Virus record (IMG/VR): IMGVR_UViG_3300045921_000069
Span: 1-29,103 of that record
Length of the DNA: 29,103 bases
From: a virus
Reading direction: 5' to 3' (one strand)
Under the pieces are notes generated by a model that saw only the letters and a program-made list of their open reading frames with translations, had not been told where the DNA came from and did no database searches. This document shows, piece after piece, positions 2,667 through 29,103 of this stretch (the first letter of the stretch is position 1; the number at the start of each line of letters is the position of its first letter). Position numbers and translations under genes: made by a program.

Positions 2667-2712
2667 TTTTGTTTCCTTTTAGATTGGGCATAGCCCTTAA
2701 TTGCTTAATTAC

Positions 2713-2741
2713 ATGATAACAAAAATAAAACCTTTTGTCAA
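2713..2741 (-). promoter_or_regulatory. Sigma70-type promoter (TTGACA-17-TATCAT)
   Basis: On the minus strand TTGACA (2741-2736) is followed after exactly 17 bp by TATCAT (2718-2713). This is the best consensus promoter in the window. The start site would be near 2706, 40 nt before the ATG at 2666. It would drive the coiled-coil peptide, transglycosylase and small membrane protein genes. Confidence 0.7.
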
Positions 2742-2789
2742 ACCTTTTCCAGTGTATCTTATGCACAGGTTGGTTATTATCTCATAAAT

Positions 2790-3030
2790 AAGCCCAAAAA
2801 AATGGTTTTCTGCAAAATAAAAACCTACAACCCCAAAAGTTATTTTGACTAATGGGGTTGAAGGATTTGGTTTTTGGGCTTGATTTGGTAATGAACCAAA
2901 GCCAGTGAATAATTTTGACTGGCAGTTCAAACTTCAAGCCGTGTGGAAGGCATGAAGGTTAGTTCATGCCTTAATGGTTGGCTAATTGAGGAAAACTGTA
3001 GGAAGTTTAAGCAAACAGGAAAGTTTGCTT
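2790..3030. repeat. Gene-free stretch packed with inverted repeats
   Basis: Between the stop at 3037 and the promoter at 2741 lies about 300 bp with no credible gene. It holds nested arms 2790-2800/2871-2881 around 2828-2835/2853-2860, then 2901-2906/2918-2923, a perfect 10-bp pair with a 6-nt loop at 2947-2972, and a perfect 8-bp pair with a 6-nt loop at 3009-3030. The last two follow the 3037 stop directly and may protect or end the mRNA. The 8-mer GGTTAGTT recurs at 2957 and 3035. Confidence 0.6.
2814..2860 (-). terminator. Candidate intrinsic terminator
   Basis: On the minus strand CAACCCCA and TGGGGTTG (2860-2853 and 2835-2828) form an 8-bp stem with a 17-nt loop. Four nt later comes a T-rich run, TTTTTATTTT (2823-2814). 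It lies between the zinc-protein gene and the next promoter, where a transcript end is expected. An outer pair of 11-bp arms (2790-2800 and 2871-2881) encloses it. The loop is longer than usual. Confidence 0.5.
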
Positions 3031-3036
3031 GGCAGG

Positions 3037-26824: not shown

Positions 26825-27205
26825 TTAATTTTTACGAAATCCTTTTATATGTTCTTGGAAAAACTTATAGCCCCTGCTGTTTTTCTTGTCAGGATTTTTT
26901 TCATAGTATTCTGACATGCGTTCAGCCATGCCTTTACCATTTCTGGTGTCTGGGTAATCAACATTGCTGGGCGGTTGACCATAATTCTGTGGCATGCGAT
27001 TTGGGTATGTTTCATAATACTTCGCAATTGTTAGCACTTCAGCGATTGAACTGCCTTTTATTTTTTCGCCATTGTCTAGTTCCATCAAATCATCAAGACC
27101 AACATCAGCTAGTCTGTCGTTCTGCTCGCTGGTAATAAAATGGGCTGAACCGCTATGTGTGACAATGACATGGGTTTTAACTGCTGTGCTAAGTGATTGA
27201 TTCAT
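26825..27205 (-). CDS. Hypothetical protein (126 aa)
   Basis: The product has a beta-rich start (THVIVTHSGSAHFITSEQNDRL), a KGSSIAEVLTIAKYYETYP helix that includes a G-SSI-EV pattern, then a Pro/Asn-rich segment and a charged helical end. Its start overlaps the end of the replication gene by 4 nt, so they are co-translated. Family not recognised. Confidence 0.65.
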   Translation of the reverse strand: MNQSLSTAVKTHVIVTHSGSAHFITSEQNDRLADVGLDDLMELDNGEKIKGSSIAEVLTIAKYYETYPNRMPQNYGQPPSNVDYPDTRNGKGMAERMSEYYEKNPDKKNSRGYKFFQEHIKGFRKN

Positions 27206-27930
27206 AGTTTAATGACCTTTCGTTGCCTTCCACCAGATTGGGTCTGGTTGAATTGCTTAATTTTAGAAAACCATGTGATTAACCTTCGGTTCAGTTCAAA
27301 GACTTTTTCCATCTGCCAGCGTTGCTTCGTGCCAGTGCTGTTTGGTTCTGTCCAGTATAGAATAAATCTTTTAAGCTGGGTTTGGGCAACATCTCTTGGA
27401 ATTCCCTTACTCACTAACCAATCAACTGCCTTGTCTTGGATTTCATTATCTGAAAAAAACCCTTCTGCCCTTTGCTTGGGGTTGGCAACTGCAAGTTGCC
27501 CTATCTCTTTATTTATATTGTTTACATTGTTTACATTGTTGTATGTGGTGTCTGGCTGGTGTCTGGCTGGTGTCTGGCTGGTGTTTTTGGTGGTGGGCTT
27601 TTCCCCCCTATCTTGATATTGGCTATATTTCACAATGGTAATAACACTAAACTTGTTGGTGGTTTTGATGGTGATAATTTGAAGGTTTACAAGAATTTTC
27701 AAATAATCCTTGATGGTGTTGGGATTTAAGCCAGTTGCTCTAGCCAAAGCATATCTACCAGTAATGATTTGCCCCCTTTTCAGGGTTTCTTCTTTCCCAT
27801 TCCACAGAAAAGTTGTGTCCTTGTGTGAAGCAGTTAGTAGTAATTCCATAAATAAATGAACCAACCCAGATCTCTTCCACAATGGGTTTTCTCTTATTTT
27901 TCTGTGCAAGACTATGAATCCGTTGTTCAT
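27202..27930 (-). CDS. Replication initiator / replisome organiser (DnaD- or lambda O-like)
   Basis: The 242-residue protein begins NNGFIVLHRKIRENPLWKRS and continues with RGQIITGRYALARATGLNPNTIKDYLKIL and a wing, an arrangement typical of phage replication initiators. A low-complexity linker follows (NTSQTPARHQPDTTYNNVNN), encoded by tandem DNA repeats. The C-terminus, QLKRFILYWTEPNS...RWQMEKVFELNRRLITWFSK, is a motif found in phage helicase-loader-interacting proteins. It should bind the origin and recruit the host helicase. The structured leader upstream suggests its level is controlled. Confidence 0.8.
   Translation of the reverse strand: MNNGFIVLHRKIRENPLWKRSGLVHLFMELLLTASHKDTTFLWNGKEETLKRGQIITGRYALARATGLNPNTIKDYLKILVNLQIITIKTTNKFSVITIVKYSQYQDRGEKPTTKNTSQTPARHQPDTTYNNVNNVNNINKEIGQLAVANPKQRAEGFFSDNEIQDKAVDWLVSKGIPRDVAQTQLKRFILYWTEPNSTGTKQRWQMEKVFELNRRLITWFSKIKQFNQTQSGGRQRKVIKL
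27484..27584. repeat. Iteron-like tandem repeats inside the replication gene (candidate origin)
   Basis: In order on the plus strand: a perfect inverted repeat GGCAACT-GCA-AGTTGCC (27484-27500); three 9-bp units TTTATATTG, TTTACATTG, TTTACATTG (27512-27538); and three exact 11-bp units TGTCTGGCTGG (27549-27581). They encode the low-complexity linker between the two domains of the initiator. In lambda the origin iterons lie in the same place within gene O. The 11-bp unit is not a multiple of three. Confidence 0.55.
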
Positions 27931-27947
27931 TAGAATGATTTAGTTTG

Positions 27948-28122
27948 GTTTTGTCAATGTTTCATGTGAAAAACAAAATCCTGATTACCAATTCAATTGT
28001 TCAGTGGTGACAAAACCGATGAAGCTATTGTTGGGTAATCAGGACTTTATTTTCCAAATGTCTTTGGACTTTTTCCCTATATGAAATATAAAATAGCTTC
28101 AGTGTTTGTTTTAGTTTTGTCA
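27948..28122. repeat. Three copies of TGACAAAAC upstream of the replication gene
   Basis: TGACAAAAC occurs on the minus strand at 28122-28114 and 27956-27948, and on the plus strand at 28008-28016. A fourth copy lies in the TerS promoter (23473-23465). Two of these copies make up the outer part of the long inverted repeat of the leader. They might bind a shared regulator or the initiator. Confidence 0.4.
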
Positions 28123-28124
28123 CC
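27969..28124 (-). promoter_or_regulatory. Structured leader RNA with crossed stems and a U-tract
   Basis: Arms in transcript order are A (28124-28114 plus 28100-28092), B (28044-28034), A' (28029-28021 plus 28016-28006) and B' (27989-27979). A with A' gives 11 + 9 bp around an asymmetric loop; B with B' gives 11 bp. The order A-B-A'-B' is that of an H-type pseudoknot or of two competing folds. B' is followed by TTTTGTTTTT (27978-27969), so B-B' looks like an intrinsic terminator with a 44-nt loop. A small hairpin (28054-28067) lies between A and B. This covers most of the 227-nt gap, and no gene is visible in it. Confidence 0.6.
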
Positions 28125-28140
28125 CTTAAGTTATAAAACC

Positions 28141-28149
28141 ATTATAACA
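28141..28149 (-). promoter_or_regulatory. Extended -10 promoter for the replication leader (TGTTATAAT)
   Basis: The minus strand has TG-T-TATAAT, a consensus extended -10, just after the stop of the 77-residue gene. No -35 match is seen. The start site would be near 28134, about 10 nt before the first arm of the structured leader. Confidence 0.55.
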
Positions 28150-28157
28150 TGGATTTA

Positions 28158-28391
28158 TTAATTAAATGGTTGTGGATAACTTTTTGTATTCCGTTCAATA
28201 ATCTTTTTTGATATTACTTCAAAGTCATAACCCCAGACATCACAGTAATGGTGAAGTAATTTTGAATTTGCAAACTTAATGTTCCTTGCCTTTTGTGCTT
28301 CATCTATTGTTGGTGTGACTGATGAATAAACCACAGCTTCAACCAGCTTGGCATAGCAGGTGTTAATTTTGTTTTGCTCTGATGGGTTCAT
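28158..28391 (-). CDS. Hypothetical protein (77 aa)
   Basis: The product is mostly helical, with QNKINTCYAKLVEAVVYSSVTPTIDEAQKARNI and LLHHYCDVWGYDFEVISKKIIE. Two Cys and two adjacent His could bind metal but are not arranged in a known motif. It starts 2 nt after the coiled-coil gene ends. Family not recognised. Confidence 0.65.
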   Translation of the reverse strand: MNPSEQNKINTCYAKLVEAVVYSSVTPTIDEAQKARNIKFANSKLLHHYCDVWGYDFEVISKKIIERNTKSYPQPFN

Positions 28392-28393
28392 GG

Positions 28394-28780
28394 TTATTTG
28401 TTAATTTTGATTGCCAAGTTTGGCTTTTCTTCAACTTCAACCAAAGGATGTGTGAATTCGCCAGCCTTCACATCATCGGTAAACTTCTTTGTCAGTTCTA
28501 AGTGTGCAGGGATTTCTTGCACATACTTCACAATTTTCTGGTCGTGCAACTCGCTGATTAACGCTAATTCATCTTTGACAGTGATAATTTTTCTGTTGAC
28601 ATAACTAACTGTCGCTAGTGCATTTTTATAACCATCAGTCAGCCCATTATCTTCAACATAGCCAAAGATTTCTTTCCTAAGTGCTTCTTTTTTATCGGTC
28701 AAGGTTGAAATCTTTTTTTCAATGGCTGTGTATTCTTTAATAAGTGAATCAAGTATCAGTTCTTTAATTATTTCTTTCAT
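28394..28780 (-). CDS. Coiled-coil phage protein (128 aa)
   Basis: The first 50 residues form a clear coiled coil (LIKEYTAIEKKISTLTDKKEALRKEIF), followed by a beta part (TVSYVNRKIITVKDELALISEL) and a charged end. Coiled coil followed by a T..SYV.RK....D strand is seen in early phage proteins such as Gp157-like and Gam-like ones, but I cannot fix the family. Being in the recombination/replication operon, DNA-end or nuclease-related roles are possible. Confidence 0.65.
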   Translation of the reverse strand: MKEIIKELILDSLIKEYTAIEKKISTLTDKKEALRKEIFGYVEDNGLTDGYKNALATVSYVNRKIITVKDELALISELHDQKIVKYVQEIPAHLELTKKFTDDVKAGEFTHPLVEVEEKPNLAIKINK

Positions 28781-28811
28781 ATAAGTCTTGCATTAGTTAA
28801 TTACAGAGAGC

Positions 28812-29103
28812 CTACTTACCCAATGCTTTTTTAATCTCGCTAATGGTGTATTTCTTGCCTTCAATTTCAATAACATCTGAGTTTGTATCAAGCACATTTA
28901 TACCTGTAATATCTTCAAAAATGCGTGCATCAAAGTTTGGTAAGGCTAGAAACTTCTTTCTGTTTTCTTCGTCAGTGTCTTCCCAAAAATTCTTCCAAGC
29001 TTCCTTATAATCGAAAGTTTTTAGATAACCTTTTCGTATATCATATTCTGGATTTGCTTTCTTTTCTTCGTCAGTCATATTTTCTTCGGAAATCCACTTG
29101 GTT
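28812..29103 (-). CDS. Conserved small phage protein, 5' end probably beyond window
   Basis: The frame is open to the right edge. An ATG lies at 29078, but upstream codons read KWISEEN, and W.SE.NMTDEEK..NP fits the rest of a family I recognise from phages and prophages: GYLKTFDYKEAWKNFW, then FLALPNFDARIFEDITGI. The LPNFD...F..ITGI motif is its hallmark; function unknown. It ends with a short KYTISEIKKALGK helix. I therefore mark it as partial. Confidence 0.7.
   Translation of the reverse strand, partial: TKWISEENMTDEEKKANPEYDIRKGYLKTFDYKEAWKNFWEDTDEENRKKFLALPNFDARIFEDITGINVLDTNSDVIEIEGKKYTISEIKKALGK

Follow-up and report, generated by a model that had tools for sequence, protein, structure and literature searches.

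A candidate C4/CI-like self-antisense attenuator in the leader of a DnaD-like helicase-loader gene of an IMG/VR virus

The window analyzed here is the whole 29,103-nt stretch of IMG/VR virus record IMGVR_UViG_3300045921_000069. It contains a non-coding leader on the minus strand, at about 28134-27931, ahead of a gene for a DnaD-like helicase loader. It lies in the gap between a 77-aa gene, whose stop codon is at 28158, and the helicase-loader gene, whose start codon is at 27930; both are on the minus strand, and the genes upstream share this direction. The presumed controlled gene (27202..27930, minus strand) encodes a DnaD/DnaT-like helicase loader of 242 aa, as judged by profile matches to phrog_2514 (E 1.2e-33) and to the DnaT C-terminal domain (E 5e-5, slightly short of the Pfam cut-off), in agreement with a first-pass annotation that had described the region as the leader of a replication initiator. 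A putative extended -10 element TGtTATAAT (TGTTATAAT, 28149-28141, minus strand) precedes the leader; the -35 region is weak, and the element was not listed by a consensus promoter scan. Transcription from it would be expected to start near 28134. The only perfect DnaA box of the window, TTATCCACA (28171-28179, minus strand), lies in the end of the upstream gene, approximately 25 nt before the leader promoter, and a replication origin may be located nearby.

Four complementary arms, found mechanically, follow the promoter on the minus strand in the crossing order A-B-A'-B', as previously proposed. No frame is open across the leader in any of the six, so coding does not account for the arms. 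Arm A is bipartite. Its box a, GGTGACAAAAC (28124-28114), lies within about 10 nt of the expected transcript 5' end and is an 11/11 complement of 28016-28006; box b, TGAAGCTATT (28101-28092), is a 10/10 complement of 28029-28020. The two boxes are 12 nt apart, and the A' segments opposite them are nearly contiguous, so that the long A-A' pairing proposed earlier consists of two perfect helices of 11 and 10 bp. Arm A' (AATAGCTTCA-TC-GGTTTTGTCACC, 28029-28006), composed of b' (28029-28020) and a' (28017-28006), is antisense both to A and to a further box, C, described below, and both of its parts lie inside the 44-nt loop of the B-B' hairpin. The arms of this hairpin, B (28056-28034) and B' (27989-27967), form a stem of 23 bp; its core, in which TCCTGATTACC (28044-28034) pairs with 27989-27979, has the 11 perfect Watson-Crick pairs already reported, five of them G-C, and is lengthened by G-U and A-U pairs. 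The G+C core is directly followed by a U-run, UUUUGUUUUU (27978-27969), which is also base-paired to the lower, A-rich part of B. A G+C-containing stem with an adjoining U-run is the sequence pattern of an intrinsic terminator, here with A' in the loop, as had been noticed before. The loop of 44 nt is long for such a terminator, which counts against an attenuator; the hairpin was missing from a terminator scan because this allowed loops of 3-8 nt only.

Such an arrangement is rarely produced by chance. Of 2000 dinucleotide shuffles, 3 contained two crossing perfect stems of at least 11 and at least 10 bp, and 0 contained three stems of 10 bp or more. The combined layout score of the leader was reached by none of 500 shuffles; the other gene leaders of the window score far below it. 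No comparable crossing pair was detected in the 63 kb of non-coding DNA scanned in terminase-family relatives. The minimum free energy of the leader corresponds to a z-score of -4.6, and the predicted fold is one 23-bp stem with a single 44-nt loop, in which b' and a' lie side by side. The computed duplex energies are -27.8 kcal/mol for A-A' and -33.2 kcal/mol for B-B', each helix being stable by itself. In folding of growing RNA pieces, A-A' dominates until the U-run is made, and then B-B' wins. The earlier suggestion that the two helices either coexist or compete is supported in this either/or form.

Both the bipartite nature of A and a third complementary box had been missed in the first-pass annotation. 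The latter, box C (TGACAAAACC, 27956-27947, minus strand), is located 17-26 nt before the helicase-loader start codon, is a 10/10 complement of a' within A', and belongs to an 18-nt direct repeat of A (83% identity). Its probability of arising by chance is about 0.001-0.005 (5 of 5000 shuffles in one test, p 0.005 in another). It was this box that led to the comparison with the P4 and c4 systems.

In satellite phage P4 and in phages P1 and P7, antisense control is known to be exerted by RNA processed out of the very transcript that it controls. The CI RNA of the P4 immunity leader is described as a processed antisense RNA that base-pairs with both seqA and seqC and causes termination of replication-operon transcription (PMC4825925). 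The P4 inverted repeats (NC_001609) run in the order a1b1 targets - B - b'a' - B' - a2b2, with the second target near the next gene; in this control cmscan placed c4-a1b1 at L108:4706-4654 and C4 at 4508-4421 (C4 E 1.2e-14). The window leader has the same plan: it is untranslated, lies ahead of replication genes, and shows the order A-B-A'-B'-C, the antisense segment of the hairpin complementing a bipartite upstream target near the 5' end (11 + 10 bp) and a downstream copy (10 bp). The claim that no described phage leader has such a plan therefore fails on P4 (NC_001609; PMC4825925), although its companion, the likening of the leader to an attenuator or a plasmid-type copy-control leader, pointed to the right area. 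The window leader differs from that of P4 in having no sequence or Rfam match to CI RNA, in its single long stem with one loop and a U-run after the stem, and in the downstream gene, since the P4 leader precedes the alpha primase-helicase operon and not a DnaD-like loader.

Three further systems are similar in part. The c4 RNA of P1/P7 (RF01695, with c4-a1b1 RF03163) is also processed from the leader of its target; its loops a' and b' bind the a and b boxes, and a second target lies near the translation start (PMC5320573), but it has three stem-loops, is processed by RNase P, and acts on an antirepressor. In the plasmids pT181 and pIP501, copy number is limited because antisense pairing permits a terminator to fold in front of the initiator gene (PMC5703833); however, the antisense RNA is encoded there on the opposite strand, whereas in the window the antisense segment belongs to the same strand and lies within the loop of the terminator. 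Plus-strand promoter-like sites in the leader are weak and no more numerous than in shuffles. Finally, IsrK and STnc1160 of the Gifsy-1 prophage are leader-derived phage RNAs related to the P4 system (PMC4825925), but IsrK activates orf45/anrP translation, and the window has no isrK match.

A close relative of the window leader was not found in searches of phage and IMG/VR sequences. Leader DNA gave 22-nt chance matches only in the phage collection, and orf128 searches gave no matches. An exact-pattern scan of IMG/VR with the two A boxes returned four matches, the three that were read being coding DNA without matching arms. Among 36 records of terminase relatives (52-61%) there was no homologue of the initiator or of the leader, and the best weak DNA match was coding rather than a leader. 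Few relatives were obtained from Clostridia and Bacteroidia prophages.

The layout does recur ahead of related genes. For 119 distinct relatives of the initiator, the 220 nt upstream received a score for hairpins with a loop complementary to a segment 5' of the hairpin, each leader being compared with 100 shuffles and called positive in the top 2%. Positive leaders made up 17 of the 29 DnaD-like leaders with a non-coding gap of at least 90 nt (one of the 17, L129, is not canonical), 4 of the 90 with a shorter gap, and 15 of 160 control leaders of other genes with such gaps (17/29 vs. 15/160, Fisher p = 1.5e-8). As a few initiator leaders are present among the 160 controls, the control rate is an upper bound and the contrast is conservative. 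Two leaders with short gaps, those of L225 and L194, likewise fall under 2%, apparently by chance. Coding may contribute to the scores of the L117, L120, L138, and L250 leaders, which are in frames open to the initiator; with the open-frame leaders (L221 included) removed, 12 of 24 are positive (Fisher p = 7.7e-6). Canonical leaders comprise a promoter-like sequence, A near the expected 5' end, a hairpin with A' in the loop, and the start codon, and in about ten of them the hairpin is followed by a U-run. Extra A boxes at the start codon, comparable to C, are present in the L208 and L221/L237 leaders; C boxes are significant in a minority of leaders only, and many leaders have none. No related leader searched, those of L117, L124, L137, and L138 included, has an Rfam match, and the open-access papers that we found describe no general class of such leaders ahead of DnaD-like genes.

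Complementarity is retained where the sequences change. The initiators of L124, L173, and L148 are 63-82% identical to that of L124, and their leaders share promoter and spacing; despite differing sequences, A-A' is complete in all three (8, 10, and 11 pairs), as is B-B' (12-13 pairs). Vibrio phages with initiators about 60% identical to that of L148 have 30-50 nt upstream only and no such leader. In the larger leader family, 27 of 79 leaders are positive. In its Bacteroidetes-type core, the promoter TATATTTG is followed by P1, a 5' hairpin whose loop of about 14 nt carries A; by P2, a terminator with a U-run; and by P3, an inner helix closing a 9-10 nt loop that contains A'. A and A' thus occupy two separate hairpin loops (kissing); no Rfam match was found for leaders of this type. 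In ten Bacteroidetes-type sequences all four helices are kept together, with 48/50 paired cells in P1, 79/80 in A-A', 100/100 in P2, and 40/40 in P3, though the parsing rule demanded at least six complementary loop bases, which biases A-A' toward pairing, and P1-P3 were likewise picked as stems. When partners were dealt anew, these values were reached in 0 of 2000 trials for every helix. Both sides changed at 7 of the 8 A-A' positions, and the mean perfect complement was 7.5 nt between cognate loops and 3.6 nt between non-cognate ones. The MAFFT alignment had two rows shifted by one column, and the pairs were therefore counted on the rule-parsed parts. This covariation comes from related leaders and not from the arms of the window itself, and it does not separate action in cis from action in trans.

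We consider it somewhat probable that the window leader is a C4/CI-like self-antisense attenuator, which limits expression of the initiator by the logic of P4 CI and P1/P7 c4. Transcription would begin near 28134, and the B-B' hairpin with its U-run would stop most transcripts near 27969, exposing A' in the loop. On the finished or processed leader RNA, A' would then bind the 5'-terminal A of newly started transcripts, and perhaps C before the start codon as well. With A sequestered, the competing A-A' helix would be lost from the nascent RNA, so that B-B' would form and transcription would stop; binding at C would hinder translation as well. As the inhibitor would come from the same transcript, its level would track the number of phage genomes, so that replication initiation would be under dosage-type negative feedback and relatives would interfere with one another in a sequence-specific way. 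We infer the use of the promoter, termination, and the negative sign of the regulation from the sequence, and by analogy action in trans by the finished or processed leader RNA is most likely, being favored by the precedent of the P4/c4 layout, by the extra target near the start codon, and by how quickly A and A' change between related leaders. The position of A at the extreme 5' end would also suit pairing in trans, as a free end could thread the closed loop and form two helical turns; that A and A' of the window can pair within one molecule counts against it. Control of the P4, c4, or plasmid kind is best known from the lysogenic or plasmid stage. No integrase was recognized among the ORFs of the window, a 29-kb fragment, where no profile search was made for one.

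The main rival is a pseudoknot attenuator acting in cis only, which we regard as plausible but rather doubtful. Here A-A' and B-B' would be alternative or joint (pseudoknot or kissing) states of one nascent RNA, A-A' forming first and by its topology delaying or preventing B-B', with the balance set by a host or phage factor or by the transcription rate and with no trans-acting RNA. The switch from A-A' to B-B' in successive truncations speaks for it; the covarying helices of relatives all belong to one RNA, and the many leaders devoid of C are in line with it. It leaves unexplained, however, why the window, L208, and L221/L237 carry a third target copy at the start codon and why A and A' vary between leaders with similar flanks, and the P4 and c4 systems of the same layout do act in trans (PMC4825925, PMC5320573). 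A plain terminator of the upstream operon, accompanied by an unrelated small RNA and an incidental A-A', would suit the strong B-B' stem with its U-runs and the common direction of the upstream genes, but it is improbable, as neither A-A' (11 + 10 bp) nor C is expected by chance, and the pairing of the loop with the 5' end recurs in related leaders.

Still less credible is an element acting at the DNA level, in which the GTTTTGTCA copies would be repressor sites or origin iterons near the DnaA box. Although TGACAAAAC is present in three copies and both orientations and the perfect DnaA box lies close by, boxes a, b, and B are unrelated in sequence, yet each is precisely complemented in crossing order, and relatives conserve complementarity rather than sequence. 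As for true membership in the C4 antisense RNA family, the order of elements is that of P4, and one DnaD-like relative, in L116 (41% to the window gene), has a true C4 and c4-a1b1 leader some 580 nt upstream. We nevertheless judge it the least probable of all these explanations and hardly tenable, as at E <= 10 there was no match to C4 (RF01695) in 27000-29103 and none to c4-a1b1 (RF03163) in the window, the latter being found by the same search in P4 and L116, and as the window fold has one large loop instead of the three stem-loops (P1-P3) of C4, which hold a' and b' apart from each other. The leader is thus an analogue and not a member of C4. No Rfam family matches it; microRNA-like Rfam matches in the window were rejected as chance scores of a long hairpin. 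In L116 itself, an uncultivated phage, a genuine C4, its c4-a1b1 target, and an isrK match lie ahead of the DnaD-like operon (L116:1733-1914).

Many uncultivated phages thus show a P4-like layout in front of the helicase-loader gene, in forms without an Rfam family, and one alignable leader family shows base-pair covariation. The same design built from unrelated sequences before related genes points to a self-limiting RNA brake on phage replication. It is quite possible, and we propose it tentatively, that self-antisense kissing-loop or pseudoknot attenuators form a recurring and so far undescribed class before DnaD-like loaders in phages of several bacterial groups, built repeatedly from unrelated sequences, with fast-changing loop pairs that set initiator dosage and interference like plasmid incompatibility RNAs. 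If so, plasmid-style RNA feedback on replication initiation would be common in phages, and interference between particular phages could be predicted from their loop pairs. As the pairings are precise and short, compensatory mutations offer a direct test of them.

Several variants of the layout were observed. In L151 (2393-2500), the Shine-Dalgarno sequence lies within the 3' arm of the hairpin and the leader is traversed by a short open frame, which suggests translational control. In L198 (880-1070), a similar leader with A box CATCTCACA and terminator AGCCCTTG...CAAGGGCTTTTTT is located one gene upstream of the initiator and may therefore govern the whole replication operon. Between L117 (2351-2502) and L120, concerted changes from GAGA to GCGA affect A', A, and a box that overlaps the start codon; the frame there continues open into the initiator, and RNA signals may be superimposed on coding ones. 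In a terminase relative (L044:7890-7962), a strong crossing layout precedes a 112-aa gene without a PHROGs match, and the design may thus not be limited to initiators. In the window itself, a second non-coding region (2667-3036, minus strand) with several hairpins and the promoter-like sequence TTGACA-N17-TATCAT (2741-2713) precedes a small lysis-region gene and contains a weaker crossing stem pair, whose score is reached by 9 of 200 shuffles.
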